A DNA stretch of 64,000 nt from a virus: positions 91,227-155,226 of IMG/VR virus record IMGVR_UViG_3300036772_000367; one strand, written 5' to 3'. Shown here in pieces: positions 12,436-27,140 of this stretch. A program made the position numbers and the translations under genes. Positions within the stretch are counted from its first letter, which is position 1; each line of letters starts with the position of its first letter. The notes under the pieces are model-generated. The model made no database searches and had not been told where the DNA came from. It saw only the letters and a program-made list of their open reading frames with translations.

Positions 12436-14078
12436 TTACTGTGGAGGACCGCGCTCGGATCACTCCGGCGCGGTCCTTGCCCAATGGTGAGTTCTTTTAT
12501 TCACCACTAGGACTTTTTGGGTTCCAGGCGGACGGAGTCGCCCAGGCATACCTGGAGACCGAACCAGGTACTGCCGGGGGTGTGGTGGTCGTCTTCGACG
12601 CCGGTTTGGGCAAGACGGTGCTGGGCATCGGTGTGGCGGCCTACCTGTTTGATGATGAGAAGATCGACCTGTGCATCGTCGTGTGTGAGCGCAACAAGAT
12701 CCGAGACTGGCACACCGAATTTGAGAACTTCTCGGCACTGAGTGTCCACACGTATTACGGCCCTGGTCGCCAGAAGCGACTGGAAAAGGTCCTAGCTCAG
12801 GGTGAAGTTCACGTATTGGTGACCACCTACGAGACCGGCCGCAACGAGCTGATGAGTCGCATGACCAACGGTCGGCGAGGCAAGGGCACGAAAATGGACG
12901 GCCCGCTGTTCGAGGCTCTGCAATTGCATACTCGGCGGAGCTTGTGGCTGTTCGACGAGGGTACCCGGCTGGGTGGTCGCGCTACTCAGTTGCATCAGTC
13001 CTACGACTACGCGCTACGAGAACTGCGCAAAGGTCCACATCACCAGCGTGCCCTATCTCTGACGGCTACGCCGTTGGAGCGGGACATGGAAAGCTCTTAC
13101 AACATGGGCCGCATCATCACGCCGACGACGATGCCAACTGTGGCTCGGTTCGAGGCCGACTACACCCGAGGAAAGGACGACTTCGGCCGGTATCAGTTCC
13201 GTCATGATCGCAAGGCTGATTTCGGTGCGATCTTCCGGCAGACCATGATCCGCAAGCGCAAGACCGACCTGGACGTCATTGACCAGTTCCCCGCGCAGGT
13301 CGAGAAGTCCATCAAGGTAGACCTCTCTCCGCACCACCGAGAGCTGTACAGCCTCGTGCGGTCGTTGCTGGATCCGCCCGAAGGGCAGCCCGATGACCGG
13401 ACGCCGGAGCAGTACGCGGCCGACGAACGAGCCTTGTTTCTCGCTCTTCGACTCACCGCCGGTCATCCGGCGGCTCATCTGCGGGCCCAGAATCGTCTCT
13501 CCCGCATCATCGCGGCGGAGATGGGGGAAACACTGCGGGCCATCAGTTCGTCCAAGAGCGACGAGCTGGTGGCCCGGCTTAGGCCGGTCATCAAGGGTCA
13601 AGGTGCGCAGGCGGTGGTGTTCACGTTCTTCGCCAACACGGTACTGCCGGACCTCGCCACCGACCTACGGCACGCTGGGTACACTGTGAGTACTTACTCG
13701 GGTGCTCAGAGTCACGACACCAACCTGGCGGCCGAGGACGAGTTCAAGGCCGGCAAGACCGAGATCTTGTTGACGTCGGACTCCGGCTGCCGTGGGCTGA
13801 ACCTGCCCAACGCCGAGTACGTGGTGGAGTATGAATCGGCCCTCACGCACGCCAAGCGCATCCAGCGGATCAACCGCATCCACCGCATCACCAGCACGAA
13901 GCAACTGGTAACCTGCTACACGATGGTGGCACTGGATACCGTCGAAGAGGGCCTCGTCAACCTTATGCTCCGGCGCAACGAAGATCACGACATCCTGGTC
14001 GGGGACGAGGAAGACGGTACCCAGTTCGTCAGCGCGGCCGAACGCCGCGTGCTGTTGGACATCGCGCGCAAGCGCTAA
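12432..14078 (+). CDS. SNF2/DEAD-like helicase
   Basis: This 548-residue superfamily 2 ATPase starts at ATG 12432, overlapping the previous stop. Motifs in order: Walker A DAGLGKT (about 56-62), TTYET (Ia), LFDEG at about 174-177 where SNF2 proteins usually have DEAH, LTATP (motif III), then a C-terminal domain with SDSGCRGLNLPNA and RIQRINRIHRI (motifs V and VI). Phage SNF2-like proteins remodel nucleoprotein during replication, recombination or transcription. The DEG substitution in motif II is unusual. Target unknown. Confidence 0.85.
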   Translation: MITVEDRARITPARSLPNGEFFYSPLGLFGFQADGVAQAYLETEPGTAGGVVVVFDAGLGKTVLGIGVAAYLFDDEKIDLCIVVCERNKIRDWHTEFENFSALSVHTYYGPGRQKRLEKVLAQGEVHVLVTTYETGRNELMSRMTNGRRGKGTKMDGPLFEALQLHTRRSLWLFDEGTRLGGRATQLHQSYDYALRELRKGPHHQRALSLTATPLERDMESSYNMGRIITPTTMPTVARFEADYTRGKDDFGRYQFRHDRKADFGAIFRQTMIRKRKTDLDVIDQFPAQVEKSIKVDLSPHHRELYSLVRSLLDPPEGQPDDRTPEQYAADERALFLALRLTAGHPAAHLRAQNRLSRIIAAEMGETLRAISSSKSDELVARLRPVIKGQGAQAVVFTFFANTVLPDLATDLRHAGYTVSTYSGAQSHDTNLAAEDEFKAGKTEILLTSDSGCRGLNLPNAEYVVEYESALTHAKRIQRINRIHRITSTKQLVTCYTMVALDTVEEGLVNLMLRRNEDHDILVGDEEDGTQFVSAAERRVLLDIARKR

Positions 14079-14103
14079 CCCGCACCAGAGGGTGCAACCA
14101 CAT

Positions 14104-14397
14104 ATGAAGATCACTCGCGCCCATCTCGGTCACATCTACAACATCACCGAGCAACGCATTACCAGCTACCACGTAGAGGTCACGCGGACACCGCTGCACG
14201 TCGAGCTGGTGGATCAGTTTCATACACTGGCGCACCGGTTCACTCGACCGTTCCCACCGCTGTTCCGGGTCGTGTGTTGGTTGCTGTGTCAGCACACCGA
14301 CGCAGGCATCGAGTCCTGGGTCTGGCGCAAGACGCAGCGCTGGGATTTCCCCCTCACCGACGAGCAACGAGACGAATTTCGGAGGCAGCTTCAGTGA
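14104..14397 (+). CDS. Hypothetical protein
   Basis: A 97-residue basic, histidine-rich protein. ATG 14104 is preferred over GTG 14092 because GAGGG lies about ten bases upstream. It contains a central hydrophobic helix (LFRVVCWLLCQH) that is too short and too polar at its edges to call transmembrane. It overlaps the next gene by GTGA. No family recognised. Confidence 0.55.
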   Translation: MKITRAHLGHIYNITEQRITSYHVEVTRTPLHVELVDQFHTLAHRFTRPFPPLFRVVCWLLCQHTDAGIESWVWRKTQRWDFPLTDEQRDEFRRQLQ

Positions 14398-14768
14398 CCA
14401 CTAAGCCGTGGGATAGCAGCAAGTACATCACTCCGGAAAACAAAGACCGCATCGAGGAGCACAAGGATCAGATGCGGTCCGAAATCAAGCCCCACCGGGT
14501 AGCTGTGGTGATCTTCACCGAGGTCGAGGCTGTGGACGAGGGAGACGCCGTGTTCATCGCCGAACGTGCGGTCAAGGAAGCTATCCGCATAGCCAGCATC
14601 GGTAATGAGCCTCTCACCAGTATCACTGCGCCTCGACTGGAGTTCACCTCACGAGGTAATAATTTCACTGTGGGTGTGCATTCCGTCAAGGAAATCGGTT
14701 GCGCGGCGCGCATGGGACTTCTTTGGTTGAACCCCACATCATCCGCTTACAAAAAGCATGAGAACTGA
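14394..14768 (+). CDS. Hypothetical protein
   Basis: A 124-residue acidic-to-neutral protein starting at GTG 14394 inside the previous stop (GTGA), with GGAGG at 14381-14385. It has an alternating pattern of helices and strands (PHRVAVVIFTEVEAVDEGDA, AERAVKEAIRIASIG). No motif of known function is visible. It sits in a plus-strand run of small genes after the SNF2-like helicase. Confidence 0.6.
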   Translation: MTTKPWDSSKYITPENKDRIEEHKDQMRSEIKPHRVAVVIFTEVEAVDEGDAVFIAERAVKEAIRIASIGNEPLTSITAPRLEFTSRGNNFTVGVHSVKEIGCAARMGLLWLNPTSSAYKKHEN

Positions 14769-14807
14769 TGTTATTGTCCGACTTTGACTAACTACGGAGA
14801 CAGTACG

Positions 14808-15176
14808 TTGATTACTAACTTGAACGAGGAGCTGGCACCTGCGGTGGCAGCGGCCATCGAGCGCTACGCGGGCGGCGAAGACGTCCGCTGGGACACGGCC
14901 TTTACCGCGTTCCCCAACCCTGCTCAGCCGGGTGCCATGGTCGGTGTGGTGCTGGTGTACATCCAGATCAAGGGCGCCGTGCTGGGTACACACCTGACCA
15001 TGACGTCGCTGCTGTCCCCGAACATCGCGGCCGAGGATGTCGACAAGCAGGTCCGCGAGATCATGTCCAGCATCTTCGAGCAGCGCTCCGAGCAGCTCGG
15101 CTCCATGTCAGAGCAGCAGGAGGGGGCTCACGCCAACGGGCAGTCGCCGCCGGTCGGTGGGTTGATCCTGCCATGA
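14808..15176 (+). CDS. Hypothetical protein
   Basis: About 122 residues. TTG 14808 is the likely start because CGGAGA lies seven bases upstream; an in-frame TTG at 14784 is the alternative. Residues 5-100 form a compact mixed alpha/beta sequence, followed by a Gln/Gly/Pro tail. No family recognised. It overlaps the next gene by ATGA. Confidence 0.55.
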   Translation: MITNLNEELAPAVAAAIERYAGGEDVRWDTAFTAFPNPAQPGAMVGVVLVYIQIKGAVLGTHLTMTSLLSPNIAAEDVDKQVREIMSSIFEQRSEQLGSMSEQQEGAHANGQSPPVGGLILP

Positions 15177-15379
15177 CGGATCTTTCTTGTTCCGAGATCC
15201 TCTGGGCGGCAGCAGCGAAACTGCGGGATGGTTCGCCGCTCGTGTCTCCCACTGTGGTCGAACCGCTCGCTAAGTGGTTGGAGGACAACGCCGACGACAT
15301 GGACCAGGAGGACCGCGCCGAGCCCGAGACGAGCCAAGAGAGCTATTCCGTGGCTTTCGCCCGCTCCATCCTCCGATGA
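15173..15379 (+). CDS. Small hypothetical protein
   Basis: A 68-residue, strongly acidic, mostly helical protein (EPLAKWLEDNADDMDQEDRAE) starting in an ATGA overlap. It also ends in an ATGA overlap with the following small gene, so three consecutive genes look translationally coupled. Function unknown. Confidence 0.55.
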   Translation: MTDLSCSEILWAAAAKLRDGSPLVSPTVVEPLAKWLEDNADDMDQEDRAEPETSQESYSVAFARSILR

Positions 15380-15573
15380 CGACCCCACTGAATCGCCCCG
15401 TACCTGGTCATACTCCGATCAGGTACGGGGCGGGAGACTGGCGGTGTCGTTGTGGCCGGTTACTGGGCGGTGGCCCCTACGGTAATGGCCGACGAGGTGC
15501 CCGTGACGTCATGCACTTCCATCGGATGGATTTGAACTTCGCCGTGCTCGCGATTCTTCGTTCAGCCGCTTGA
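15376..15573 (+). CDS. Small Cys/His protein
   Basis: A 65-residue product with WRCRCGRLL followed by a C-terminal MHFHRMDLNFAVLAILR helix, a pattern common in small actinophage proteins that may bind a metal. It starts in an ATGA overlap. A perfect 13-base-pair hairpin (arms 15394-15406 and 15420-15432) lies inside the coding region, and its 3' end overlaps the convergent minus-strand gene by 65 bases. The gene is plausible but not secure. Confidence 0.4.
   Translation: MTTPLNRPVPGHTPIRYGAGDWRCRCGRLLGGGPYGNGRRGARDVMHFHRMDLNFAVLAILRSAA
15394..15432 (+). terminator. 13-bp hairpin at convergent gene junction
   Basis: The arms CGCCCCGTACCTG and CAGGTACGGGGCG pair perfectly around a 13-base loop. 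It lies where plus- and minus-strand operons converge. There is no U tract, so a bidirectional or Rho-assisted terminator is an inference. Confidence 0.4.
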
Positions 15574-15889
15574 GTTCAGCCAGACTCGGGTAGATCCCGA
15601 GTAGCCGACGGTGCAACACGAAGGCCACGATCCGAGTGACCTGATCAAGCCGAGAGTCACCGGGCACACCATCCGTCATCGTCTCGCTGTTCCAGGTGTC
15701 GTCGGTATCCCAGGCAGCACCCAGTGTGCCTGCGACCTCAGCGGCGATGTCACATGCGGCACAATCACGTTCGTGAATATCCTCGATTTTCCAATTGACA
15801 TCGAGGATATTGTGCAGGAACTTGTCGTTCTTGCCGGTCATGGCATCAGCGAGTTTCTGGATCATTCGATCCCAGCTTAGTTCAGTCAT
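15509..15889 (-). CDS. Hypothetical protein
   Basis: A 126-residue product. ATG 15889 (MTELSWDRM) overlaps the stop of the preceding minus-strand gene and is preferred over ATG 15919. It is helical, with a Cys pair (RDCAACD) in the middle and a basic Ser/Arg-rich end. Function unknown. Last gene of the minus-strand cluster. Confidence 0.6.
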   Translation of the reverse strand: MTELSWDRMIQKLADAMTGKNDKFLHNILDVNWKIEDIHERDCAACDIAAEVAGTLGAAWDTDDTWNSETMTDGVPGDSRLDQVTRIVAFVLHRRLLGIYPSLAELKRLNEESRARRSSNPSDGSA

Positions 15890-16175
15890 CGGCTGAGTTG
15901 TCTCGGTAGGGACGTGCATCGACCGGCAGCTCCCGCGTTGTCACCTGACGGACCGGGAAGCCCTGGTTGATGTAGACCCTCAGGTAAGTACTTGATCTGT
16001 CCCAGTAGCCTCGGCTATCGGGCGGATAGCAGTACCAGGTGTGTTGGATGTCAGGATGAGCACGGTCGATTCGAAGGAAGACACCGCCGGGGCGCATACC
16101 ATCCACGAGCCAATAACTGAATTCCGGCGCGTTGGTGTAGTTCTCGGTGACTTCGTCGTGACATTCAGTATCCAT
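15882..16175 (-). CDS. Hypothetical protein
   Basis: A 97-residue protein rich in Tyr, Trp and Asp. The ATG follows CTGCACCGGAGGTCACC, the same leader motif that precedes several plus-strand genes in the 50-63 kb region. It is separated from the secreted hydrolase gene by a 14-base-pair hairpin, so it may have its own transcript. No family recognised. Confidence 0.6.
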   Translation of the reverse strand: MDTECHDEVTENYTNAPEFSYWLVDGMRPGGVFLRIDRAHPDIQHTWYCYPPDSRGYWDRSSTYLRVYINQGFPVRQVTTRELPVDARPYRDNSADD

Positions 16176-16212
16176 TCGGTGACCTCCGGTGCAGTCGTGG
16201 GCTCGGTGTCGG

Positions 16213-16253
16213 TGTCCCGAGCCTCGTTGAGGTAACGACCGAGGCTCGGGACA
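16213..16253 (-). terminator. 14-bp terminator-like hairpin after the hydrolase gene
   Basis: The arms TGTCCCGAGCCTCG and CGAGGCTCGGGACA pair perfectly with a 13-base loop, just downstream of the secreted hydrolase stop. No clear U tract follows. Confidence 0.55.
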
Positions 16254-16259
16254 TATTCC

Positions 16260-17414
16260 TTACCTCCCGATCGACAGCGCACCGGTCTGTGCACACCGCG
16301 CATGACCTGTGGTGGGAGAGATCGTCTCGCGTACCCACGACACGATGTCCCGGTTGGCGGTAGCCGCACCCTCCTCGGTGGTGAGGTCGTGGCCCGAGCG
16401 CGGCACTACGCCTGCCGTGAAGCAGGCTGCCAGGTAGTTCGGCTTCTCCGCCGTGTACAAAGCCGCACCGCTGGAGCAGTCATCTAGGTTCGTCTCGTTC
16501 GGTGCCGGTGCCTGGGAGTTGTCACAGTAGTGCGCGTCGTGCTGCCCGTCCAAGAGCAACACTGGCACCCGGATGGTGGCCGTCAACGCGTTCAGTGTGG
16601 CCGGGCGGGATGTGATCTCACCCAACGTCAGGGTGTCCTCGGTAGTCCAATCGAACTGCACCATGCCGGGCGAGGCGAAGCCGGGCGTGTAGACAGTCAG
16701 CAGCCTGCCGGCGGCCGTGGTGTTGGTCAGGTAGCCGGGATCCAGTGGACTGAACCGCCGGGGCCACACTGTCGCGGCGGCTGAGAAGGCCGTGTGCGTG
16801 GCGGCCGTGGTCGCGGCACTCACCTTGCTACCCGAGCCGGTGACGACGAGCGCAGCGTAGTCCTGGGGGTAGGTCGCGGCCTGATTCACCAGTTGTGCCG
16901 AACCGAAGCTGTGTCCCACTCCGACCACGCTGGTGTACCGGACCTTCAGCTGGGCGACCACCTGATGCAGTGTCCATCCCTGCTGGGTGAAGGTGTTCAA
17001 GCCGGAGAGCGGGTGGCTGGAGATGCCGTAGCCGAGCCGGTCGATCGCGGTGACCGCGTAGCCGGCAGCCAGCGCGGACCAGACGGTGCTGCGGACGGCA
17101 GGATCGTCTGGCCAGGACCAGTAGCTGCTGTTGTAGGTCCCGCCGTGCAGGAGGAGCAGGTCGGTCCGTGGTGGTAGTCGAAGGGTGGGAATGCATTGGA
17201 ATCCACGCAAATCAGCATGTGTGTTGTCTGTCAAAGTGACCGGAAAAGTCACCTCATGACAAATGCCGATCCAGAACGGCGGAAGGGCGAACATCGGCTC
17301 GCGCGCCATGGAGGATTGCTGTGTCGACGTATCGGCCGAAGCGGCACTGGACAAAAACAGCGAACTGACTACAAGAGCCATTATTACAGTACACACTTTT
17401 TGAAGTAAGCGCAT
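16260..17414 (-). CDS. Secreted alpha/beta hydrolase (esterase/lipase-like)
   Basis: A 384-residue protein with a signal peptide: MRLLQKV, a hydrophobic core, and a likely signal peptidase I site after SSAASA near residue 27. The alpha/beta hydrolase fold is shown by the oxyanion segment LLHGG (about 88-92), nucleophile elbow GHSFGS (Ser169), an acid around GQHD (289-293) and His342 in SGHDL. It is probably exported to act on esters outside the membrane. ATG 17414 overlaps the upstream TAA, with AGGAGG nearby. The upstream in-frame extension lacks a signal peptide. A secreted esterase encoded away from the lysis genes is unusual and may modify the host envelope. Confidence 0.75.
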   Translation of the reverse strand: MRLLQKVCTVIMALVVSSLFLSSAASADTSTQQSSMAREPMFALPPFWIGICHEVTFPVTLTDNTHADLRGFQCIPTLRLPPRTDLLLLHGGTYNSSYWSWPDDPAVRSTVWSALAAGYAVTAIDRLGYGISSHPLSGLNTFTQQGWTLHQVVAQLKVRYTSVVGVGHSFGSAQLVNQAATYPQDYAALVVTGSGSKVSAATTAATHTAFSAAATVWPRRFSPLDPGYLTNTTAAGRLLTVYTPGFASPGMVQFDWTTEDTLTLGEITSRPATLNALTATIRVPVLLLDGQHDAHYCDNSQAPAPNETNLDDCSSGAALYTAEKPNYLAACFTAGVVPRSGHDLTTEEGAATANRDIVSWVRETISPTTGHARCAQTGALSIGR

Positions 17415-17947
17415 TATTGTGGACCTCCTAGGATTGGGTATAACGCCAGCGGCGTCACGTAACCGGCCCAACGGCCGTCGTTGAACACGTTTTTCACGGT
17501 CTTGGACGCCTCAACCAGTCCTCTGGTGATCCCCTCGTCCACGAGTTCGCTACAGATCATGTGGCCGGTGTTGGCGATGAACTCCCGCAGGCCCGGCGGG
17601 TTGATGCCGAACCTATGCAATGCGATCGCGCCATAGTCCAGCGCCGAGTAGCCGACGCCCTCCAGCGCGCGGCCGTGCTTGGCGATACTGTCCCGGACGG
17701 CCGAGGTCAGGATCTCGTCCGACCAGTGGCTCCAGACGATGTTGGTGCCGTCGTACGTAGACACGGGCACGATCGTGGCGCCGCCCGGCTCTGCCTGAAC
17801 CACTTCGTCATCGCCCACGCACAGAACGGCGTGCTGGTAGTCCCGCCAGCCGTTCTTATTGATGCCCTGGCCGAACCAGATAGCCCGGCCGGGGAAGCCC
17901 TTGATCGCGACCAGGCCGAAGTCGCCCGCCTGTGGTTTCGCGATCAT
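17414..17947 (-). CDS. Permuted NlpC/P60-like cysteine hydrolase
   Basis: A 177-residue protein with the order typical of circularly permuted papain-like NlpC/P60 enzymes: GDFGLV at the N-terminus, His39 in DYQHAVLCVG, then Cys132 in HMICSELVDEG near the C-terminus. No signal peptide is present. It may hydrolyse an amide or thioester in peptidoglycan or lipid; the substrate is unknown. Its stop overlaps the secreted hydrolase start (TAATG), so both are probably made together. Confidence 0.65.
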   Translation of the reverse strand: MIAKPQAGDFGLVAIKGFPGRAIWFGQGINKNGWRDYQHAVLCVGDDEVVQAEPGGATIVPVSTYDGTNIVWSHWSDEILTSAVRDSIAKHGRALEGVGYSALDYGAIALHRFGINPPGLREFIANTGHMICSELVDEGITRGLVEASKTVKNVFNDGRWAGYVTPLALYPILGGPQ

Positions 17948-18375
17948 GCCGGCCGCACGATGTTGCGGAAGTCGGTCCGCCGCGCCTCATCGGTCGTCAG
18001 ATCGTGCACGATATAGGGATCCTCGCCATGGCCGTGGTTCGGTGCATAGGGCTTCACTCCGTCGTCCGTGAAGAACTCCATGCACTCATGCTTCTCGACT
18101 TCGAGTAGACGTTCGAACAGCCAGCGCTGCCATGAGGCCCTGTTGTAGGCGGCGGCCGGCACGGGGAACAAATGCCGCACGCGGATCTCTTCGTGCGGTG
18201 GGTAGCTATTCGGGCCTACCACGAGCACCGTCAACGTCAGACCGGAACAACCTTGTCCCCGGTCCTCGTCGGATAGCCACAGTTGCCAGCCGGGCCGGTA
18301 CGCGCATTGTTCCACCAACTCGACTAAGGTGTATGGATATGGCCCCACTTGATCATTTCGTTCGCTCGTTGTCAC
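17944..18375 (-). CDS. Hypothetical protein, member of a phage paralog family
   Basis: A 143-residue protein; GTG 18375 follows GGAGG. It shares a pattern with the genes at 57346 and 58174: a start such as TLVELVEQCAYRPGWQLWL (compare YKPQWRLY and YKPDWTLE), a hydrophobic middle, and LLEVEKHECMEFFTDDGVKPYAPNHGHGE (compare LLECERHETTEFF and LLAMEAHETREYF). No function is known to me. It overlaps the NlpC-like gene by ATGA. Confidence 0.6.
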   Translation of the reverse strand: MTTSERNDQVGPYPYTLVELVEQCAYRPGWQLWLSDEDRGQGCSGLTLTVLVVGPNSYPPHEEIRVRHLFPVPAAAYNRASWQRWLFERLLEVEKHECMEFFTDDGVKPYAPNHGHGEDPYIVHDLTTDEARRTDFRNIVRPA

Positions 18376-18398
18376 GCTGCCTCCATCGTCGCTATTAA

Positions 18399-18581
18399 TC
18401 ACCGCATATCCTCCGGCTTCATCTCTACTTCGTACATGGGTCCGTCCCAGCCGGTCGTGTTGTGAAGCCACGCCGCGAAGGCCGCTGGTGCCTCTTCGGG
18501 CTGGAGGCCGTGCTCATCCATGTAGTGATCGAAGTCGGCGAAATCACCTTCGTGACATCCCTGATCACAATAGCTACTCAC
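18399..18581 (-). CDS. Small hypothetical protein
   Basis: A 60-residue acidic protein starting at GTG 18581, six bases after GGAGGAGG; an upstream ATG at 18599 lies in front of that ribosome site and is unlikely. It has a Cys pair (YCDQGCHEGDF). First gene of the minus-strand operon running to 16260. Function unknown. Confidence 0.55.
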   Translation of the reverse strand: MSSYCDQGCHEGDFADFDHYMDEHGLQPEEAPAAFAAWLHNTTGWDGPMYEVEMKPEDMR

Positions 18582-18605
18582 GGTATTCCTCCTCCACAAC
18601 GCAGC

Positions 18606-18636
18606 GACCCCCGGAGCATATCCGACTCCGGGGGTC
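18606..18636 (-). terminator. 11-bp hairpin upstream of the minus-strand operon
   Basis: GACCCCCGGAG and CTCCGGGGGTC pair perfectly with a nine-base loop. It separates the tRNA-like region from the small-gene operon on the minus strand and probably ends the tRNA transcript. On the plus strand it is followed by TATCTAC. Confidence 0.5.
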
Positions 18637-18731
18637 TATCTACACGTAATAACCTGCACGGTTAATTGTAGTGCTGCGCATCAGTGCGAGAAATCCAGCA
18701 AGCATTTAAGCATCTACATGAGCTTCAGCGA

Positions 18732-18912
18732 TGCCGTGTAATTCCTTTATACTATCGAGCCGTGCGGGGGACCATCCAAAACCAGCGGGCGTAGATGGTC
18801 CCCCTGTATCCCACCCGGACCCCTCCCAGTGGGGCCTGGCGGCCCTCCCCCGAACTGGGAGACTCCGAGGAGGGCCAGAGGCTCGAAGGGGAATTGAACC
18901 CCCATCTCGGCA
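18732..18912 (-). tRNA. Candidate circularly permuted tRNA 2 (3' half before 5' half)
   Basis: Read on the minus strand, the first part (18912 to 18880) is a tRNA 3' half: anticodon-stem strand TGCCG, short variable loop, T arm GGGGG-TTCAATT-CCCCT and acceptor strand TCGAGCC. After 118 bases comes a 5' half (18761 to 18732): acceptor GGCTCGA, TA at positions 8-9, D arm GTA...AAAGGAA...TAC, A26, and anticodon-stem strand CGGCA. The acceptor strands pair 7/7 and the anticodon strands 5/5, only in the permuted order. CCA is not encoded. The intervening segment holds 11- and 8-base-pair hairpins. The anticodon cannot be read because the halves would join inside the loop, and the visible loop bases give C rather than U at position 33. 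It could instead be a relic of rearranged tRNA genes. Confidence 0.5.
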
Positions 18913-18989
18913 ATTCAGTTGTGTAGGTGCGGTCGATCTGGATTTCGCAGCGGGTTTCAGCTTGGGGCAAGAACTTGAGTCTGATGAGA

Positions 18990-19114
18990 AACGGTGCCTC
19001 TGCCAATTGGGCTACCGGAGCGTTGGGGAGAAGAGAACGCGTGCACGTTCTCTTCTCCGATCCCTGACTAGAGGGTAGAGCTCCGGGAGGGATTCGAACC
19101 CTCACTGTCCCGTT
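18990..19114 (-). tRNA. Candidate circularly permuted tRNA 1 (3' half before 5' half)
   Basis: On the minus strand, 19114 to 19080 reads as a 3' half: AACGG, variable loop GACAGT, T arm GAGGG-TTCGAAT-CCCTC and acceptor CCGGAGC. After 58 bases, 19021 to 18990 reads as a 5' half: GCTCCGG, TA, D arm GCCCAATTGGCAGAGGC, A26, CCGTT. Acceptor strands pair 7/7 and anticodon-stem strands 5/5 in the permuted order. With a seven-base loop the total would be about 74 bases, a normal size. Beyond the anticodon stem, TCTC (5' half) can pair with GAGA (3' half) across a two-base bulge. CCA is absent. The anticodon is unresolved. No conventional 5' half with matching acceptor lies upstream. Confidence 0.55.
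19027..19058 (-). other. 13-bp hairpin inside the permuted-tRNA 1 intervening segment
   Basis: GGAGAAGAGAACG and CGTTCTCTTCTCC pair perfectly with a six-base loop. The hairpin fills most of the 58 bases between the acceptor 3' end and the acceptor 5' end, so it would bring both ends of the acceptor stem together in a folded precursor. Confidence 0.7.
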
Positions 19115-19152
19115 GTTCTCTGAGCCTCAGCTTTACCTTGAGCTTATGCCCA

Positions 19153-19173
19153 CCCGACCTCAAGGAGGTCGGG
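19153..19173 (-). terminator. Hairpin between the DUF7873-like gene and tRNA 1
   Basis: CCCGACCT and AGGTCGGG pair perfectly with a five-base loop, eleven bases after the stop of the gene at 19184-19954. It may be a terminator or a processing site that separates the tRNA-like transcript. No U tract follows. Confidence 0.45.
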
Positions 19174-19183
19174 AGTCTGTGTG

Positions 19184-19954
19184 TTACCGGAGGTCGGTCA
19201 ACGGGTCGAACAGGTAGCCGAAGATCCTGCGGCCGAGGGTACGCTCCTGCTCCACGACGAGAGTATTGCCCTCGGAGCGAGCGGCTTTGACCGCGCGACG
19301 CAGGGTGTCGATGCGCTGGATCAACTCCACCTTCACCGAAGCGCGGATGGCGCCGGACGTCTTCACCGTCGCCCAGTAGCCGACGATCACGTCCTCGTAG
19401 AACATCTCGACCTGCGCCGGGTGCTTGTCGGTGGCCGGAGCCTTCTCGTGGTTGCGCGGGACCTTCTTGGTGCGGGTGGTTTCCGTGGGCACCGTCGCGA
19501 AGGCCACGGCGTCGTTGTTGTAGGACCACGTCTCGGCCGGGTCCAAGGTGGGCACCAGGCTGACCACCTTGCGCAGGTCGGTGAGCTGCTTCTCCAAGAA
19601 GATCAGGTAGGTCACCGGCACGTCGACCAGAATCGCGTCCGGCTGGCCGTCCAGCTTGACCGTGGCGACGGCACTGGTGTTGGCCTTCACCGAGGTGAAC
19701 TCCAGGTTCAACAGGTCCGCCAGGCTCTCCTGGAGGCCGTCGAGCAGCTCCGGTACGCGAAGCTGGACCTGGGTCTGCTCGGCCGGCAGCTTGTCGCCCT
19801 CGTCGTCCTTGGGCTTGTAGGTGCGCTGGATGCCGGCCATACGGCTGGTCTGAGTGCTGTTGAAGGTGTGCAGGACGCCTTCCAGCGACTTCTTGGCGCG
19901 GTTCTTGGCGTCGGGCAGTACGGCGAGGATCTGGCTGAGGCGAGTGGTCGCCAC
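19184..19954 (-). CDS. DUF7873-like conserved protein
   Basis: A 256-residue protein with the pattern I recall for the DUF7873 family of phages and actinobacteria: RTYKPKDDEGDKLPAE near residue 45, LVDVPVTYLIFLEKQLTDLR near 110-128, LDPAETW, then RTKKVPRNHEKAPATDKHPAQV and EDVIVGYWATVKTSG. The biochemical function is not known to me. It is transcribed away from a long regulatory region (19955-20534), which suggests independent control. Confidence 0.7.
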   Translation of the reverse strand: MATTRLSQILAVLPDAKNRAKKSLEGVLHTFNSTQTSRMAGIQRTYKPKDDEGDKLPAEQTQVQLRVPELLDGLQESLADLLNLEFTSVKANTSAVATVKLDGQPDAILVDVPVTYLIFLEKQLTDLRKVVSLVPTLDPAETWSYNNDAVAFATVPTETTRTKKVPRNHEKAPATDKHPAQVEMFYEDVIVGYWATVKTSGAIRASVKVELIQRIDTLRRAVKAARSEGNTLVVEQERTLGRRIFGYLFDPLTDLR

Positions 19955-20534
19955 GTAGTGCCTCCGGGGTCCTGTGAGCTGAGCTTGAGGTAGTGCCGCT
20001 TCGCGTTCAGTGTCGTCCAGCGGCGGGTACGGACGGAAGTTAACAGGATCCCCACGTCTTCGTCAACTCCGTTCACTCAGTGTGATGTTGACCAAGGGGA
20101 GGTTGACAGACCAGGTGGCGACCACTATCACGCGTGTCCGGGCGCATTGTTTTGTGTGTCGACGATCGATTTGACATCGTCATTACCATTGAGGGTGGAG
20201 TTGGGTGGGTACGATACAGTCCATCCCGATATCCAGGATTTGACATGGTGGATAGGATCGGTTCTGGCTTCTGTTCTCCAACAAGCTCGCTCATATCCGC
20301 TCGCGAAATACATAAGGGCAACTCACGCGCACGCGCTACGCGCCTGCGCGCTCGCTGCGCGCTACGCGCGCGAGGTATGCCAGGGACCTAACAACGGTAT
20401 TCAACCGTACCCAGTAATATCGCGCGAGTACCCGACCGCCGCCCCCAGCGCAAGCCCTCGACGGAGATTCTTAGAATGACTTTCGATACGCCTGACAAGA
20501 CCGAGTACTGCCGGGAGAGTGTGTCTCTGTGGGA
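19955..20534. promoter_or_regulatory. 580-base divergent intergenic region
   Basis: The region lies between divergent transcripts. It contains possible short reading frames on both strands, but none has a ribosome site or familiar sequence. A CG-alternating stretch at 20322-20372 holds two copies of CGCGCTACGCGC (20332-20343 and 20358-20369) and can form several alternative hairpins. I see no rRNA, tRNA or clear promoter. Confidence 0.35.
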
Positions 20535-20675
20535 ATGACACATAGCCATCGCTGGGGTGAATGGGTATACGATCCGTACACCAACAAATCTATTCGGACA
20601 TGTAAGGATCTTGAGTGTCAGGATCAGCAGACAGCCTCCGGAGATAAATCTCCTGGCAAAGACAAGAAGAAATAA
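20535..20675 (+). CDS. Small Cys-containing protein
   Basis: A 46-residue frame, MTHSHRWGEWVYDPY, then RTCKDLECQDQQ and a Lys-rich tail. The His/Trp start with a CxxxxC pair resembles very short actinophage proteins that may bind zinc. The ribosome site is weak, so the call rests on the composition of the protein. Confidence 0.4.
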   Translation: MTHSHRWGEWVYDPYTNKSIRTCKDLECQDQQTASGDKSPGKDKKK

Positions 20676-20772
20676 ATAGTCGGTCTTCCTGTGTACGGAG
20701 CGATGTTTCCATTAAAGGGTTGTTCCTGACACTCTGCTCGGCGGCTGCCGGGCTCATCTACCAGGAGACCGA

Positions 20773-21372
20773 ATGCCCCATCAGGTCAAGACCCTCGTCG
20801 GGAATGTGACTCTACCGTCCGACGATGAGGGCCCGCCGATTTCCGTCCAGGCCGCGCAACAGACCATCACGTTGACGGACGCGCAGTATGCGAAGATCCC
20901 GCCCGCCGCTTTCGCCAGCATGTCGTTCTACCAGGAACTGACGCCCGACCAGATCTCTAACGCCAACGCGCCGTACCAGGGCCTGTACTACTCCCTCACC
21001 GGCACGCACAGCGCCTACCTCCAGGACCTGGGGGCGACTGCCGGCGGCAGTATTCTGGTCACGGCTCAGGGCACGCACGTCGCTGCGATGGGTGCTCTGA
21101 CCTCGTCGGCCCCAGCGGCCGTGACGTCCAGTCAGAACGCCACGACCATCGCGGTGACGCCCGCCAACGCGTCCTACACCCAGGCTGACCAGACCACGAT
21201 CGCCAACCTGGCGAACGCCCTGAAGATCAGCTACAACGCCGCGCAGGTCGACATCGCAGCCCTGCGCACCACGTTGGCCGCAGTGCAGACCGACTTGGCG
21301 ACACTGCGCACGTTGGTGAACACTGAGCTGGCCGCCCTCCAGATCACAGGTGGTCCGCAGGCAGCGAGCTGA
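20773..21372 (+). CDS. Putative head-fibre/virion decoration protein
   Basis: A 199-residue protein. Residues 25-60 (ISVQAAQQTITLTDAQYAKIPPAAFASM) resemble the start of small phage head-fibre and structural proteins, which often carry LTDAQYxKLP. The middle is rich in Ser, Ala and Thr, and the C-terminal 55 residues form an Ala/Leu heptad-like helix typical of trimeric coiled coils. ATG follows CCAGGAGA. It stands alone, followed by a 14-base-pair terminator. Confidence 0.5.
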   Translation: MPHQVKTLVGNVTLPSDDEGPPISVQAAQQTITLTDAQYAKIPPAAFASMSFYQELTPDQISNANAPYQGLYYSLTGTHSAYLQDLGATAGGSILVTAQGTHVAAMGALTSSAPAAVTSSQNATTIAVTPANASYTQADQTTIANLANALKISYNAAQVDIAALRTTLAAVQTDLATLRTLVNTELAALQITGGPQAAS

Positions 21373-21385
21373 CCTGTAGAAGCAC

Positions 21386-21421
21386 CTCGACCCCGCACCT
21401 CCTCCAGGGTGCGGGGTCGAG
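21386..21421 (+). terminator. 14-bp Rho-independent-like terminator
   Basis: CTCGACCCCGCACC and GGTGCGGGGTCGAG pair perfectly with an eight-base loop, 14 bases after the stop at 21372, followed by TCTGTCT. It ends the plus-strand transcript before the repeat array. Confidence 0.75.
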
Positions 21422-21462
21422 TCTGTCTAGAAATATGGAAAGCGACGACGCACTCCTGGACT

Positions 21463-22482
21463 GGAACACCCATCGATGGCTTGGCGAATGAATCACCCCA
21501 ATGAAACACTCTGGATCGCGGTGTGTGGAATACCCATATAAGATGTCGCGAACGGAACACTCCAGATAGTGGCGAGAAGTCGTCGGGCGTGGAACACCCG
21601 TAACTGCCAACACGCCAAGGAGGAACACCCTCAAATCGGCGCGTACCTGTGCTATGGAACATCCCCGTAGAACAAAAGACCCGCTCGGCTACCGCTGTCG
21701 GAACACCCCGTGTACGTGGGACAGATAGGTGGACCGACGATCTACGCCGAGGCCGGGAGGGAACACCCTCAGGAATCAAGGTCATCGCCCTGGGACGGGA
21801 GGGAACACCGGACCCTGCTACATCGGCAGCGGCAAGTGGAACACACAGGCAGTGGTGAGGAACGTCGGGGGAACACCCTGTTCGGATTGCTTCCCCCGTA
21901 GGAATACTCTCACAGGTACCGGTAGACGTGCCGAGAACACCCTGTACGGCATGATCGACTGATCGTCGCGGAACAAACCCTCAGATCTTTCGGATGACCA
22001 GGTAGCCCAGAACACTCTCGTGAGAACACTCTTGTACAGCGGGAGTTATACAAGTTCGCTGGAGCAGCCTCGCATACACGGGACAGATCTGGAGCCGCGC
22101 GGGAGGGGAGAACACCCCTGTGTACGTGGGATAGACCTTACGTGTGTCGGCGTAAGCCCGTACAGCAGAAGAACACCCTCGCGTACACAGGAAAGACGGC
22201 CCGCCGTCGCTGTCCGCCTTGAGTGGAACAACCCTGAGTACGTGGGACAGACGGACCCTTCTTGCCGAGCCACAGTCTGTCACTCGGAACACTTCTGCGT
22301 ACGTGGGACAGACCGCTCGAAGCGATCCTTGAATGCCTGACGAGCCGGAATACCCCTGTGTACGTGGGCAGACCTTGGCGGTATTCGCGGCCCGGAACAC
22401 ACCCGCGTACGCGAGACAGACGGCGGCCCTGTAACCACGGATGGATGAGCCAACGGAACATCCCGTCAGGGCACCGATTTCC
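21463..22482 (-). CRISPR. Degenerate CRISPR-like repeat array, about 25 units
   Basis: On the minus strand a motif ending in GGGTGTTCC recurs about 25 times and is not coding. In plus-strand terms the GGAACACCC-like cores start at 21463, 21503, 21527, 21554, 21591, 21622, 21656, 21700, 21760, 21802, 21838, 21870, 21901, 21934, 21970, 22009, 22023, 22061, 22109, 22170, 22225, 22286, 22347, 22394 and 22455. The copies at 21700 and 22061-22394 extend to a repeat of about 28 bases, GTCTGTCCCACGTAC then about four bases then GGGTGTTCC. Four intervals are exactly 61 bases (28 + 33 unique bases). Length, spacing and a conserved 3' tail match type I-E CRISPR geometry, though repeats vary and the inner palindrome is mostly weak. 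Distal units keep only the tail at 14-44 base spacing. No cas operon is visible. Confidence 0.55.
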
Positions 22483-22488
22483 CGTGTC

Positions 22489-22511
22489 CATATCACTATG
22501 TAGATATAGGG
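22489..22511 (-). other. Possible right-end hairpin of a TnpB element
   Basis: CCATATC and GATATAGG flank ACTATGTA, giving a short imperfect hairpin 12 bases after the tnpB stop. IS200/IS605 elements carry a right-end hairpin here, overlapping the guide RNA scaffold. The match is structural only; element ends cannot be fixed from this sequence. Confidence 0.35.
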
Positions 22512-22523
22512 GTGTGTCAGGAA

Positions 22524-23966
22524 TTACTTCCTGGCGGTGGCCATCTGACGATGGTCTTCTCGTTTCACCGAGGACTGCTCACCATTGCTGGTGAGACTGA
22601 CATTCTCTCCACGAGCGTTTAATGTCTCCCCTGCTCCAGAGGCGACAGATCGATCAGGGGCCCATTCCACCAGATTTCTGGCGGCATTCACGTCCCGATT
22701 GAGGACGAGACCGCAATGATCACAAACATATACTCTGTCCTGGAGGTTCAGCGTGGCTTTAACTGAACCGCATCGAGAACATACTTTACTGGAAGGAAAA
22801 AATCTGTCTACCACGGTCAGGGCAGATCCGTACCACTGGGTCTTGTAGTCCAGTTGGCGGCGGAACTCACCGAACGCGGCATCCAGAATCGAGCGCGAAA
22901 GACCTGATTTCGCTCGAACATTCTTGCCGGGCTTCTCGACGGTGCCTCGGGCTGAGGCTGTCATGCCGAGTACGTTCAGATCTTCGATGGCCACGCGCTC
23001 GTACTGCGTAGCCAAGTTCTTGGTCAGCCCGTGCAGGAACGATGCTCGTTGCTCGGCGACCTGGTGGTGAATGCGGCCGACCCGAACTGCCGCACGATGA
23101 CGTCGTGCAGAGCCCCGTTCGGTCCGACTCAGTCGCCGCTGTGCTGTGCGCAGTCGTGCGGCAGCAGCGCGGACGAACCGAGGATTGTTGATCAGGGTGC
23201 CGTCCGAGTAGGCGGCCAGGTGCAACAAGCCCACATCGACACCGACGGCACCACGGACACGCTGGGCACGCGTGGTGGGCCGGAGAACGTGCTCTGCCGG
23301 CTCCTTCACCAACACGGCCGCGTACCACTGCGAAGCGCCCCGAGATAGCGCCACGGACTGAATCCGGGCACCCCTACTCAGGGCACGCACCAGACGCTTC
23401 GCCGAGGAGTGCAAGCGAAGCGACCCGAGTCGGGGAACGAGTAGGTGCCGGTATCCATCCGGGCGGATGGTAGGCGACTTGACATCGTGGTAGATCCGGA
23501 ATGAGTCGCGCGAGCGACCCTTCTTCTTGAACTTCGGGTAGCCCATCTTCCGGCCTTTGCGTTTGCCGGTGAGGGAATTCATCCAGTTCTTGAAGGCAGC
23601 ATCGGCATCGGAGAAGGCCGAGGAGAAGGTGTAGGAGGACACGGTGCGCCACCAGGGGCTGGCACCGTCCTCGCCGGTCTTCTCGTCGCCTCGGATCTTG
23701 ATCCACGCACTCTTCATCGTGAAGGCCGTCGGGATCTTGATCGACACCTGCTTGCGGGCGACCTGCTCGTCTAGGCCCTCGTCCACCAGCGCCTGGACCT
23801 GGTCACGCCAGGTCTGATGCACGCCGATCTTCACCGCCAGGGCGTGATTGAATGCCCATCGAGCGGTGCCGGCGTGCTGTGCCAACGCGGACAGCTGGTT
23901 CTGGTTGGGGTCCAGGTTGAAGCGGTACGCGCGGAGGATCGTCGCCGACTCATCGGACTCGGTCAT
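22524..23966 (-). CDS. tnpB: TnpB RNA-guided nuclease (orphan, IS200/IS605-type)
   Basis: A 480-residue TnpB with an intact split RuvC site: Asp244 in GVDVG, Glu328 in IEDLN and Asp425 in NRDVNAARN. The zinc ribbon between the last two uses Cys396, Cys399, Cys415 and Cys418 (CSRCG, CDHCG). The N-terminal wedge region carries GYPKFKKKG. ATG 23966 lies eight bases after AAGGAGG; an upstream GTG overlaps that site and is unlikely. TnpB cuts DNA using a guide RNA read from its own 3' end and flank. No TnpA is nearby. The repeat array follows directly on the same strand, an uncommon context. Confidence 0.9.
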   Translation of the reverse strand: MTESDESATILRAYRFNLDPNQNQLSALAQHAGTARWAFNHALAVKIGVHQTWRDQVQALVDEGLDEQVARKQVSIKIPTAFTMKSAWIKIRGDEKTGEDGASPWWRTVSSYTFSSAFSDADAAFKNWMNSLTGKRKGRKMGYPKFKKKGRSRDSFRIYHDVKSPTIRPDGYRHLLVPRLGSLRLHSSAKRLVRALSRGARIQSVALSRGASQWYAAVLVKEPAEHVLRPTTRAQRVRGAVGVDVGLLHLAAYSDGTLINNPRFVRAAAARLRTAQRRLSRTERGSARRHRAAVRVGRIHHQVAEQRASFLHGLTKNLATQYERVAIEDLNVLGMTASARGTVEKPGKNVRAKSGLSRSILDAAFGEFRRQLDYKTQWYGSALTVVDRFFPSSKVCSRCGSVKATLNLQDRVYVCDHCGLVLNRDVNAARNLVEWAPDRSVASGAGETLNARGENVSLTSNGEQSSVKREDHRQMATARK

Positions 23967-24124
23967 CTCACGCACCTCCTTCAGTCGCTGGAACCGGTAA
24001 CACGTAATCTACGCATGTCTTCCGCAGAAGTCAAACTACTACGGAGGTAGTTTTCTCTTCCCTCGGAGGTCACTGGGCTGCTACACTTCCTAAAGACGCC
24101 AACCGCACCGGAGGAATGAGCGCC
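23967..24124 (+). promoter_or_regulatory. Divergent promoter region for tnpB and DinG-like helicase
   Basis: The dyad AAACTAC/GTAGTTT (24033-24039 and 24047-24053) resembles the CTAC/GTAG operator-like dyads at other phage promoters. TACACT at 24081-24086 is a likely -10 element. The conserved leader CCGCACCGGAGGA (24103-24115) supplies the ribosome site for the helicase. Confidence 0.5.
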
Positions 24125-26110
24125 ATGAGCTGGAAGTCCGCACAGGCCGCATTGTCCGCAAGCCTGCCCCGCTACGAAGACCGCCCCGAGCAGACCCGCC
24201 TGGCGACCACTATCGAGCAGACCTTCGCCACGGGCACGCACGAGCTGGCCCAGGCCGGTACGGGCACCGGTAAGTCCCTCGCCCTGCTGATCCCGGCCAT
24301 TCAGTACTCCCTGGAGACCGGCGGCCCGGTGGTTGTGGCCACCGCGACCAAGGCCCTTCAGGACCAGTACGCCGGCAAGGACCTGCCGTTCCTGCGCGAG
24401 CACCTGGGTGTCGAGTTCGACTACGCGGTGGTCAAGGGTCGCAGCAACTACATCTGCCTGGCGAAGGCCAACGCTCTGGCCCCCAACGTGGTGCAGAACC
24501 AGGTCGCGCTGCTGGAGGAGTTGATCACCCACAAGACCGGCGACTTCGACGAGCTGGCCACCGTCATGGACCCGCGTGACAAGCCGCAGCTGACCACCGG
24601 TTCGGACGAATGTCCCGGCAAGCGGGACTGCCCCTTTGGTGAGATGTGCTTCGCCGAACAAGCCAAGCAGCGGGCGCGCGAGGCCAACATCATCGTGGCC
24701 AACCACTCGGTGCTGGTGACCGATCTGGCCGTGAAGCAGGCAACGGCGGGACGCGGTTCCCTCCTGCCCGACTACGACGCGGTGGCCATCGACGAGGCCC
24801 ACGAGCTGGAGGACTACACCACCAACGCCATCGGCGGGGAGTTCACCCAGCGCAGCTTCACCGCGTACTCCACCGAGGTCGCCAGCTTCCTGCACGACCC
24901 GAAGATCACCCAGCAGGTCAACGGTGCCGCCCAGCGGCTGTTCACCACGCTGGAGCGGTTCCAGGGCAACGAGAAGACCCGGAACCTGACCGACATGGCC
25001 GTGTTGGACCACGAGTCTGAGTTCATCGCCGCGATCGACGCGCTGCGCACGCTGCGTACGCACGTGGAAGCCGAAAAGATCGTCGGCAACGACGACGCGG
25101 CCGGTCGGCGCAAGCGGTTGCTCAAGCGGGGCAAAAGCCTGATCGACCGGCTGGTGGCCGTGGTGCTGTCGGACTCCGAGGACTTGGTTCGCTGGGTGGA
25201 GCGCGACGACAAGCGTGGCGTCATCCTGAAGTACGCCCCCCTCTCGGTCGCGAGTTTCCTGCGGGAGAACCTGTGGCAGCAGGTCAGTTTCCCGGACTCC
25301 GACCTGGGCGACAGGCTGCCGGAGGTCACCAACCGGACCGTGATCCTGCTGTCGGCCACCCTGGCGCTGTCCGGAGACTTCGGCTACATCGCCTCCCGGT
25401 TGGGTCTGGACGAGTACAACTCGTTCGACGCCGGCACGCCGTTCAACTACCCGCAGCAGTCGGCCCTCTACGTTCCGCAGACCGACTTCGATCCCTCGCA
25501 GGGTTTCACCTGGCAGGCCAAGATGTCCGCGTCCATCGGTGAGATGGTCAAGGCAGCCGGTGGCCGGGCGCTGCTGCTGTTCACCTCGCGCACCGCGATG
25601 AACGCCGCCTACGACACCACGGCCAACCAGATGGCCGCTGCCGGCCTGACGGTACTGCGCCAGGGTGACAGGCCCAACCGGCAGCTCGTGGACGAGTTCA
25701 AGGCCGATGAGACCTCGGTTCTGTTCGCGCTGAAGTCCTTCATGACCGGTGTGGACGTGCAGGGCGATGCCCTCCGGCTGGTCGTGATCGACAAGCTGCC
25801 CTTCCCGGTGCCCACCGACGTCATCGTCAAGGCCCGTGCCGACGCCGTTGACGCCAAGGCGAGGAACAAGTGGGTGGATGGTGCCTTCCCCACCCTGACG
25901 GTGCCCGCCATGGCGCTGACCCTGATGCAGGCGTTCGGTCGGCTGATCCGGACCCGGGACGACGAGGGTCTCGTTGCGATCATGGACTCGCGGTTGTACT
26001 CCAAGAAGTACGGCAAGAAGATCCTCGCCGCACTGCCGTCGGCCCAGCGGTTGACTACGCTGACCGAGGCGACCGACTACCTGGCGGAGCTGACCAAGCG
26101 TCGGGGCTGA
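24125..26110 (+). CDS. DinG/XPD-like iron-sulphur DNA helicase
   Basis: A 661-residue superfamily 2 helicase. Numbering from an in-frame ATG at 24116: Walker A GTGTGKS about 48-54, four Cys suited to an iron-sulphur cluster (114, 166, 172, 178), DEAH 226-229, LLSATLALSG, and QAFGRLIRTRDDEG as motif VI. DinG family enzymes unwind 5' to 3' and resolve R-loops or recombination intermediates. GGAGG (24110-24114) is one base from ATG 24116 but ten from ATG 24125, so 24125 is preferred. A strong terminator follows. Confidence 0.85.
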   Translation: MSWKSAQAALSASLPRYEDRPEQTRLATTIEQTFATGTHELAQAGTGTGKSLALLIPAIQYSLETGGPVVVATATKALQDQYAGKDLPFLREHLGVEFDYAVVKGRSNYICLAKANALAPNVVQNQVALLEELITHKTGDFDELATVMDPRDKPQLTTGSDECPGKRDCPFGEMCFAEQAKQRAREANIIVANHSVLVTDLAVKQATAGRGSLLPDYDAVAIDEAHELEDYTTNAIGGEFTQRSFTAYSTEVASFLHDPKITQQVNGAAQRLFTTLERFQGNEKTRNLTDMAVLDHESEFIAAIDALRTLRTHVEAEKIVGNDDAAGRRKRLLKRGKSLIDRLVAVVLSDSEDLVRWVERDDKRGVILKYAPLSVASFLRENLWQQVSFPDSDLGDRLPEVTNRTVILLSATLALSGDFGYIASRLGLDEYNSFDAGTPFNYPQQSALYVPQTDFDPSQGFTWQAKMSASIGEMVKAAGGRALLLFTSRTAMNAAYDTTANQMAAAGLTVLRQGDRPNRQLVDEFKADETSVLFALKSFMTGVDVQGDALRLVVIDKLPFPVPTDVIVKARADAVDAKARNKWVDGAFPTLTVPAMALTLMQAFGRLIRTRDDEGLVAIMDSRLYSKKYGKKILAALPSAQRLTTLTEATDYLAELTKRRG

Positions 26111-26136
26111 CACACACACGATCTTCCTTTACACTC

Positions 26137-26168
26137 GGCGACAGGAGAAATCCTGTCGCCTTTCTTTG
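26137..26168 (+). terminator. Rho-independent terminator after the DinG-like gene
   Basis: GGCGACAGGA and TCCTGTCGCC pair perfectly across a GAAA tetraloop and are followed by TTTCTTTG. This is a textbook terminator, 26 bases after the helicase stop. Confidence 0.9.
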
Positions 26169-26210
26169 TCTTCCCTTCGAGGAATGACACTGCTCCTGTA
26201 AAGGAATACG

Positions 26211-27140
26211 ATGATTGCTACGTGGGTTGATGCCGACAATACTTTGTCTGGAACAACGTTGGTGGCGGCGAAGATTTATGGTGCACTGCGCTACGTCGGC
26301 ATCGGTACCGGTCCGAAACGCATGACGGTTGCTGAACGAAATGACTTGACCGCACATAGCATTACGGTATTCGGTATTGCCGAATCCACCGTCACGGAGG
26401 CGGATAACGGTTACAACGCTGGTGTTCGCGATGCCCAGGCGGTGCTTGCGGATCCGGCTAGTGTTGGATTGCAATACATCTTCGCCGTTAATGATAAACC
26501 CACTTATATTCAAAGCGACGTGGACTACGTGCGTGGCTTCGCGTCTGTGCTTGGTACCAGGGCCAGTGCATATGGATTCGCCTCCTTTCTGGTCGCTGTG
26601 CGGACCCAGACGCCTGTATCTTTGTACTGGCAGGCGGGTCTCCCTCCGAATATGACTGGTACCCAGTCTTTTGTGCATTTCTGGCAACGACAAGGCACCA
26701 GCGGTAACGGTTCGGACGGACCGGCCAACCCGACGACTGCGGTCATTGGTGGCGTGACCTGCGATCTGAACAATCAACTTCTGGAGGTAGTCGTGACCCA
26801 ACCCGCAGATATCTGGAGCTACGCGATTCCCAATCCGTTGTTCGACTCGACTGTCACCGACTCGGCTGACGTCCGTAGCCACAAGGCATATACGGCCGCG
26901 CAATTCTTGGTGGGTGACTGGCGTAACGATCTTCAGACCCAGCAGACCGTGAGTGCCAACCAGGTGGCGTTGCTGTCGGCTCTCAAGACGTTGCCTACGG
27001 GTGGCCAGGTGGACGTCCCGACGTTGGTAGCGGCATTGGCAGCCCCGCTGGAGGCTGCGCTGGCCCCCCTCCTTCCGCAAGGCGTTACGGCAGCTCAAAT
27101 GGCGCACGAGCTGGGCGCGGCGTTGGACGCGGCGAAGTAG
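26211..27140 (+). CDS. Endolysin, DUF1906 glycoside-hydrolase-like
   Basis: A 309-residue protein. Residues 1-195 follow the DUF1906 (Rv2525c-like) barrel: ADNTLSG, GALRYVGIGTGPKRMTVAERNDL, a NGYNAGVRDAQAVLADP helix, LQYIFAVNDKP, YVRGFASVLGTRASAYGF and SLYWQAG. The C-terminal 70 residues (TAAQFLVGDWRNDL, LPQGVTAAQMAHELG) look like an attachment segment. The family includes phage lysins. No signal peptide. The next two genes are a small coiled-coil protein and a holin, supporting a lysis role. AAAGGA precedes ATG. Confidence 0.7.
   Translation: MIATWVDADNTLSGTTLVAAKIYGALRYVGIGTGPKRMTVAERNDLTAHSITVFGIAESTVTEADNGYNAGVRDAQAVLADPASVGLQYIFAVNDKPTYIQSDVDYVRGFASVLGTRASAYGFASFLVAVRTQTPVSLYWQAGLPPNMTGTQSFVHFWQRQGTSGNGSDGPANPTTAVIGGVTCDLNNQLLEVVVTQPADIWSYAIPNPLFDSTVTDSADVRSHKAYTAAQFLVGDWRNDLQTQQTVSANQVALLSALKTLPTGGQVDVPTLVAALAAPLEAALAPLLPQGVTAAQMAHELGAALDAAK

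Follow-up and report, generated by a model that had tools for sequence, protein, structure and literature searches.

Circularly permuted transfer RNA (tRNA) genes of algae and archaea are arranged in the order 3' half, linker and 5' half. The Y RNA YrlA has been described as a circular permutation of a tRNA (PMC11472068), in which the tRNA-like domain binds PNPase and the stem holds Rsr/Ro (PMC8394870), and tRNA-processing enzymes cleave the transcript of permuted transfer-messenger RNA (tmRNA) into fragments that stay together through base pairing (PMC11915505). Here, we analysed a stretch of 64,000 nucleotides (the window), which corresponds to positions 91227-155226 of the 155,226-base IMG/VR phage record IMGVR_UViG_3300036772_000367 and carries a tandem pair of permuted tRNA-like modules on its minus strand. 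A first-pass annotation had placed this pair at positions 18732-19114 of the window and had read it as two tRNA genes, whose halves are spliced at the anticodon. The element reaches well past these ends, spanning approximately 570 nt from 18606 to 19173 on the minus strand, and we consider it very likely that it is one structured non-coding RNA, which is produced together with the DUF7873 (PF25283) protein encoded directly upstream and most likely serves that protein.

A scan for a T arm and acceptor 3' strand, followed by an acceptor 5' strand, D arm and anticodon-type stem, was performed on both strands of all 155,226 bases. It returned exactly the two loci of the first-pass annotation, module 1 or A (18990-19114) and module 2 or B (18732-18912), and no match when the genome was shuffled 60 times with an order-2 Markov model. 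The arrangement described in that annotation is indeed present in both modules on the minus strand, and the acceptor and anticodon-stem pairings quoted there are perfect. ARAGORN reported no tRNA in the window and Rfam nothing at the gathering score, which is expected because the tRNA halves are permuted; likewise, no Rfam 15 family reached threshold for the RNA. The minimum-energy fold calculated with RNAfold for module 2 is a permuted cloverleaf, with the acceptor, T, D and anticodon stems recovered unaided, and the fold of module 1 contains the linker hairpin together with the acceptor stem and the T stem.

Relatives were gathered by the DUF7873 protein and the DNA behind the gene was then read. 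Megablast and blastn searches of the region against named phages gave no match, and a related-locus search with a single DUF7873 or DnaB protein returned nothing; only protein alignment reached the relatives. An acceptor-specific DNA pattern had a single match in IMG/VR (L017), which is not preceded by a T arm and was dismissed as a chance hit. Gordonia, Arthrobacter, Klebsiella and Pseudanabaena phages have the tandem arrangement behind DUF7873, and the Rhizobium and Vibrio phages have one permuted module or more there. The pair passed the scan in 52 of 90 phage-collection loci, the window included, and in 57 of the 80 bacterial loci (mostly from Streptomyces and other Actinobacteria) that were kept from 302 loci with DUF7873. 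In total, 106 of 164 segments behind DUF7873 contain the tandem pair, compared with 4/1488 control segments (3/657 on the same strand and 1/831 on the opposite strand). The pair is therefore not confined to phages, as the same element is found on bacterial chromosomes.

Among 98 distinct loci, all seven acceptor base pairs are formed in 96 for module 1 and in 95 for module 2, even though the acceptor 5' strand occurs in 40 and 58 distinct sequences, respectively. When acceptor partners were swapped between loci, the number of fully paired cases fell to a mean of 15.0 for module 1 and 5.3 for module 2, and pairing across the two modules, which had been noted to fail in the window, fails in 96 of the 98 loci as well. 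The tRNA signature bases T54, T55, C56, R57, A58, U8, A14 and G18G19 are conserved at 98-100% in both modules (49 distinct phage-collection loci). This covariance across relatives, which the first-pass annotation had proposed as a check, strongly supports the view that circularly permuted tRNA folds are under selection at these loci. It also bears on the idea that the modules are what decay has left of ordinary tRNAs after a tandem duplication. Tandem duplication and loss of the outer halves could produce this order, and related phages do carry tRNA arrays at the same gene, but across several phyla strands of different sequence still pair perfectly in 96 (module 1) and 95 (module 2) of the 98 loci, which refutes decay, and we attach practically no weight to this idea.

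Module 1 of the window (all coordinates hereafter refer to the minus strand) begins with the 3' strand of the anticodon-type stem, AACGG (19110-19114), and continues with the T arm GAGGGTTCGAATCCCTC (19087-19103), in which T54, T55, C56, R57 and A58 are invariant in the 49 phage-collection loci, and the acceptor 3' strand CCGGAGC (19080-19086), with U73 at 19079. Linker 1 (19022-19079, 58 nt), which contains a 13-bp hairpin at 19027-19058 and may be removed or exposed, is followed by the acceptor 5' strand GCTCCGG (19015-19021), identified by the scan and by covariation, a tRNA-Leu-like D arm (18995-19014) and, from the pairing test, the 5' strand of the anticodon-type stem, CCGTT (18990-18994). 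The module 1 5' half is similar to the tRNA-Leu(CAG) of the phage itself. Module 2 has the same layout, with the anticodon-type 3' strand TGCCG (18908-18912), a T arm recognised by the scan and its signature bases (18887-18903), the acceptor 3' strand TCGAGCC (18880-18886) with U73 at 18879, a hairpin-rich linker 2 of 118 nt (18762-18879), the longest in the family set, the acceptor 5' strand GGCTCGA (18755-18761; scan and covariation), the D arm found by the scan (18737-18754) and the anticodon-type 5' strand CGGCA (18732-18736; pairing test). Linker lengths vary across loci from 4 to 118 nt, and the distance between the modules is mostly 110-128 nt.

Both modules are connected to a common core. 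The anticodon-type stems covary (AC1, z=8.2; AC2, z=6.2) and so do two helices formed between core and tail, Pa (z=15.2) and Pb (z=13.4), each with 0/2000 swaps over 36 loci. In the window, the 5' strand of Pa, GCACCTACA (18922-18930), pairs with TGTAGATGC (18710-18718), as found in the pairing test, and the 5' strand of Pb, GAAATCCAG (18938-18946), forms 9 bp with CTGGATTTC (18690-18698) according to sequence and RNAfold. Pa and Pb are separated by two strands that are conserved in the family as ATCRACC and TTAAACG, here the internal loop ATCGACC (18931-18937; family consensus ATCgAcc) and the loop TTAAATG (18703-18709), the latter recognised in the alignment of relatives. A third helix, Pc, joins the leader to the conserved core (18953-18986), which was delimited by alignment of relatives and covariation: within the leader strand TGGGCA (19147-19152), GGGCA pairs with TGCCC at 18965-18969. 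Pc covaries with z=10.2 over 96 loci (0/5000 swaps) and with z=8.2 when sequence variants alone are counted; an earlier test with poor anchors had given z=2.7 on 20 loci, and better anchors were used for the 96-locus run. Leader-core pairing beyond Pc reached only z=3.2 and is not claimed. Upstream of Pc, sequence and folding indicate a leader hairpin, CCCGACCT-CCTTG-AGGTCGGG (19153-19173), and the RNA ends in a GC hairpin (18606-18636) with a conserved GGNTAY loop (here GGATAT); a GC hairpin with a GGNTA loop is present in 85 of 105 loci, whereas 2.1 would be expected after shuffling. Repeats of the type ARNYTSA with 6-nt spacing occur in the leader (19115-19146), where they are kept in relatives, in the core (18953-18986) and in the tail, and these might possibly form a protein-binding array. 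The covarying helices Pa, Pb and Pc and the near-constant spacing together indicate that the modules are tRNA-mimic domains of one structured RNA with a rigid core. What the comparison of relatives shows is two permuted folds, helices that join them to one core, a fixed geometry and a link to DUF7873.

These helices are also what speaks most directly against two genuine permuted tRNA genes. In such genes, RtcB or a different ligase would connect the cleaved halves at the anticodon and the linkers would be removed, which would give two decoding tRNAs. All tRNA signature bases are intact, CCA is correctly placed in many relatives, and although the first-pass annotation had noted that no RNA ligase is recognised in the window, the phage does encode an RtcB RNA ligase outside of it, at genome positions 4257-5369 upstream of the tRNA cluster (E 2e-115); a T4-type RNA ligase is absent from the phage. 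However, the anticodon-type stems continue into covarying Pa, Pb and Pc, and no conserved anticodon loop is found because these stems run into the core helices. Both would-be products have C at position 33, directly after position 32 in the two 5' halves of the window. Neither splicing signals nor a tRNA-splicing endonuclease were recognised, RtcB is lacking in 7 of 9 named relatives with DUF7873, and the phage already possesses 40 ordinary tRNAs, located at 13-32 kb outside the window. A bulge-helix-bulge motif was considered by eye and dropped, as module 1 offers a weak 4-bp possibility and module 2 none. Splicing of the halves into tRNAs, as originally annotated, is therefore probably wrong, and we regard two genuine tRNA genes as a very improbable reading of the locus.

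The second line of evidence concerns the DUF7873 gene, which encodes a protein of 256 aa from a GTG start (19184-19954, minus strand; Pfam E 3.8e-83). A search with a 24-nt core motif, which is independent of DUF7873, found 8 contigs, seven of which have DUF7873 directly upstream; the eighth match (L189) shares its contig with a DUF7873 locus (L088). No other conserved gene neighbour was found in the loci. DUF7873 is presumed, from its position, to be the protein partner of the RNA. The gene is present as a single copy in 93 of 199 sampled Streptomyces genomes (47%), in 7 of 396 genomes sampled across the phylum of Streptomyces and in four plasmid-collection records. Outside Actinobacteria, DUF7873 occurs together with the RNA, for example on an Armatimonadetes contig (L118), and DUF7873 was also seen on a Ktedonobacterales chromosome (L159) and in the control genome of Deinobacterium chartae. 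The AlphaFold2 model of the protein has a predicted local distance difference test score of 92 and showed no significant fold match in the PDB (E<=0.001) or among viral structures. The only suggestive fold match is A0A7M1RW91, a 179-aa protein of the uncultured phage cr118_1 (probability 1.00, template modelling scores 0.43/0.58, E 0.03). PADLOC and NCBIfam searches came back empty, and in openly licensed PMC articles, which include neither subscription papers nor preprints, no paper dealing with either this RNA or DUF7873 was found.

The same position could also mean that the RNA is a regulatory 3' untranslated region, in which the tRNA-mimic folds govern DUF7873 expression as elements for RNase P or for stability, with no function in trans. 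As this would require, the RNA always comes directly after the 3' end of DUF7873, on the strand of that gene, but its size and internal conservation, with a core, a terminal hairpin and long-range helices, exceed those of a simple processing signal, and its distance from the stop codon ranges from 44 to 760 nt; we therefore judge a purely cis-acting role to be improbable. Several further observations weigh against one RNA that works with DUF7873. In approximately one third of the loci, one module at most was detected, and, the core-motif search excepted, the family rests on loci that were found via DUF7873. In the Rhizobium phage RHph_TM21B (L022:3720-4230), module 1 appears, by eye, to be replaced by a plain 8-bp hairpin, although helix Pc and module 2 are retained. 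In addition, the anchors of the helix tests were placed by the analyst on aligned sequences, no fold match of DUF7873 points to RNA binding, and the long linkers of the window encode no CCA, so that CCA addition would be needed.

Across the family, a 3' CCA is encoded at 39 of 98 module ends compared with 29 of 292 ordinary tRNAs from the same loci (four times commoner; p=2.6e-10), and many linkers have the form N73-CCA-NNN. This enrichment suggests that the module 3' ends are recognised by tRNA-processing enzymes and, by analogy with permuted tmRNA, that RNase P-type processing could yield a three-piece RNA. One possible course of events can be outlined. The covarying core, with Pa, Pb, Pc, the conserved loops and the terminal hairpin, would project two tRNA-mimic domains. 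As the RNA strand runs into and out of each domain by way of the "anticodon" stem, the tRNA is permuted and a linker closes its acceptor end. The linkers might then be removed by the host RNase P and the 3'-tRNA maturation enzymes, so that the RNA falls into as many as three pieces. The acceptor stems would keep these pieces together and every module would carry a CCA end, in the manner of two-piece permuted tmRNA. More speculatively still, DUF7873 might bind the core and the tRNA mimics might dock the particle on the tRNA-handling machinery, in the way that YrlA docks Ro/Rsr on PNPase. For module 1, the nearest ordinary D arm is that of tRNA-Leu in 46 of 49 loci and an A occupies position 73 in 77 of 98 loci (U in the window), so that this module might be charged with leucine.

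A variant that disputes only the processing step is that the same RNA is never cut and acts as a single-chain, two-headed scaffold resembling a Y RNA, with acceptor stems closed as in YrlA. The topology is of the YrlA type, with YrlA matches below threshold, and in many loci, the window included, the linkers are hairpins that lack CCA; by contrast, an enrichment of CCA exactly at positions 74-76 fits 3' ends that are freed or recognised by RNase P. We take an uncut scaffold to be a real possibility, if not the one we favour. With respect to the RNA cut into three pieces, one might go further and speculate that this two-headed tRNA mimic and DUF7873 constitute a ribonucleoprotein machine of a new class, which would be a counterpart of tmRNA-SmpB or Ro-Y RNA of independent origin, with a first acceptor that is maybe charged with leucine, in phages, plasmids and about half of Streptomyces species; this wider proposal is tentative and, on balance, rather unlikely to hold as a whole. 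As DUF7873 is a family of uncharacterised function that is present in 47% of the 199 Streptomyces genomes sampled, it can be tested directly in bacteria.

Several features of the phage genome accompany the element. The ordinary tRNAs form a near-complete set of approximately 40 in a cluster at genome positions 13136-31688, and all five tRNA-Leu are about 75 nt long with a short variable loop, which differs from the usual bacterial tRNA-Leu. The helicase and DNA polymerase III of the phage are distantly related, at approximately 27-31% identity, to their counterparts in large mycobacteriophages. Elsewhere in the window (22524-26119, minus strand), a transposase-family protein of 483 aa (PHROG 506) adjoins a 712-aa protein without a PHROG match.

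The RNA, which apparently has not been described before, sits behind the gene of an uncharacterised protein in many phages and in roughly half of the Streptomyces genomes sampled, and this conserved RNA-protein pair was apparently overlooked, as permuted tRNA domains are invisible to tRNA finders. GOLLD and ROOL are large structured phage RNAs that are often found beside tRNA arrays; neither had an Rfam match in the window or in the scanned relatives. No intron family was found within E<=5 over 18200-19400, and a permuted group I or II intron was discarded. The algal and archaeal permuted tRNA genes share the order 3' half, linker, 5' half with the RNA described here, but the latter has no anticodon loop at the junction and its stems run into long helices.

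Like the two-piece permuted tmRNAs (RF01849-RF01851, RF04321), the RNA has a permuted tRNA-like gene order, but it possesses two acceptor domains and an unrelated core, and none of these families was found at its gathering score. A divergent permuted tmRNA, which performs trans-translation with a tag reading frame, would account for the permuted tRNA-like domain with CCA and for a partial match to tmRNA_permuted of 19.3 bits in the Gordonia phage Phendrix. However, the tRNA array of Phendrix also holds a separate normal tmRNA (L018:4069-4597; 89 bits), and the RNA is therefore not simply the tmRNA of Phendrix; in the region read, this normal tmRNA is unannotated in the Phendrix record. Furthermore, the D arms are complete and contain GG, there are two acceptor domains instead of one, and by eye the core and tail alignments show no conserved tag frame or stop. 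Codons resembling "KLKLRL" in the leader and core were considered as a tag, but their frames and stops are not conserved and we read them as a 6-nt RNA repeat. A divergent tmRNA is accordingly an extremely improbable identity for the RNA.

Among known RNAs, the one closest in kind is the Y RNA YrlA (Rfam RF02553), the partner of Ro/Rsr. It likewise mimics a permuted tRNA: it has D, T and acceptor arms, is closed at its acceptor end and is tethered via the anticodon side (PMC11472068, PMC8394870). With the YrlA model, matches to the modules were obtained in 10 of 11 loci tested together as well as in Phendrix and Streptomyces, and nowhere else in those sequences. The match is often full length, fits module 2 better than module 1 and reaches 44.7 bits (E 1e-6) in L029, 37.1 bits in Phendrix and 31.0 bits in Streptomyces (L112), although every locus scanned remains below the gathering score of 69 bits. 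In contrast to YrlA, two modules are joined here through a large covarying core, they have full 7-bp acceptors and often an encoded CCA, and the partner gene is DUF7873 and not one for a TROVE/Ro protein; TROVE (PF05731) had no match in the phage record, host genes being outside the search. Taken together, the RNA would be a natural case of tRNA mimicry with two acceptor domains within one molecule and would connect Y RNAs with permuted tmRNA and with phage tRNA arrays, and we rate it as a relative in kind of the permuted tRNA mimics YrlA and permuted tmRNA, but as a member of neither.
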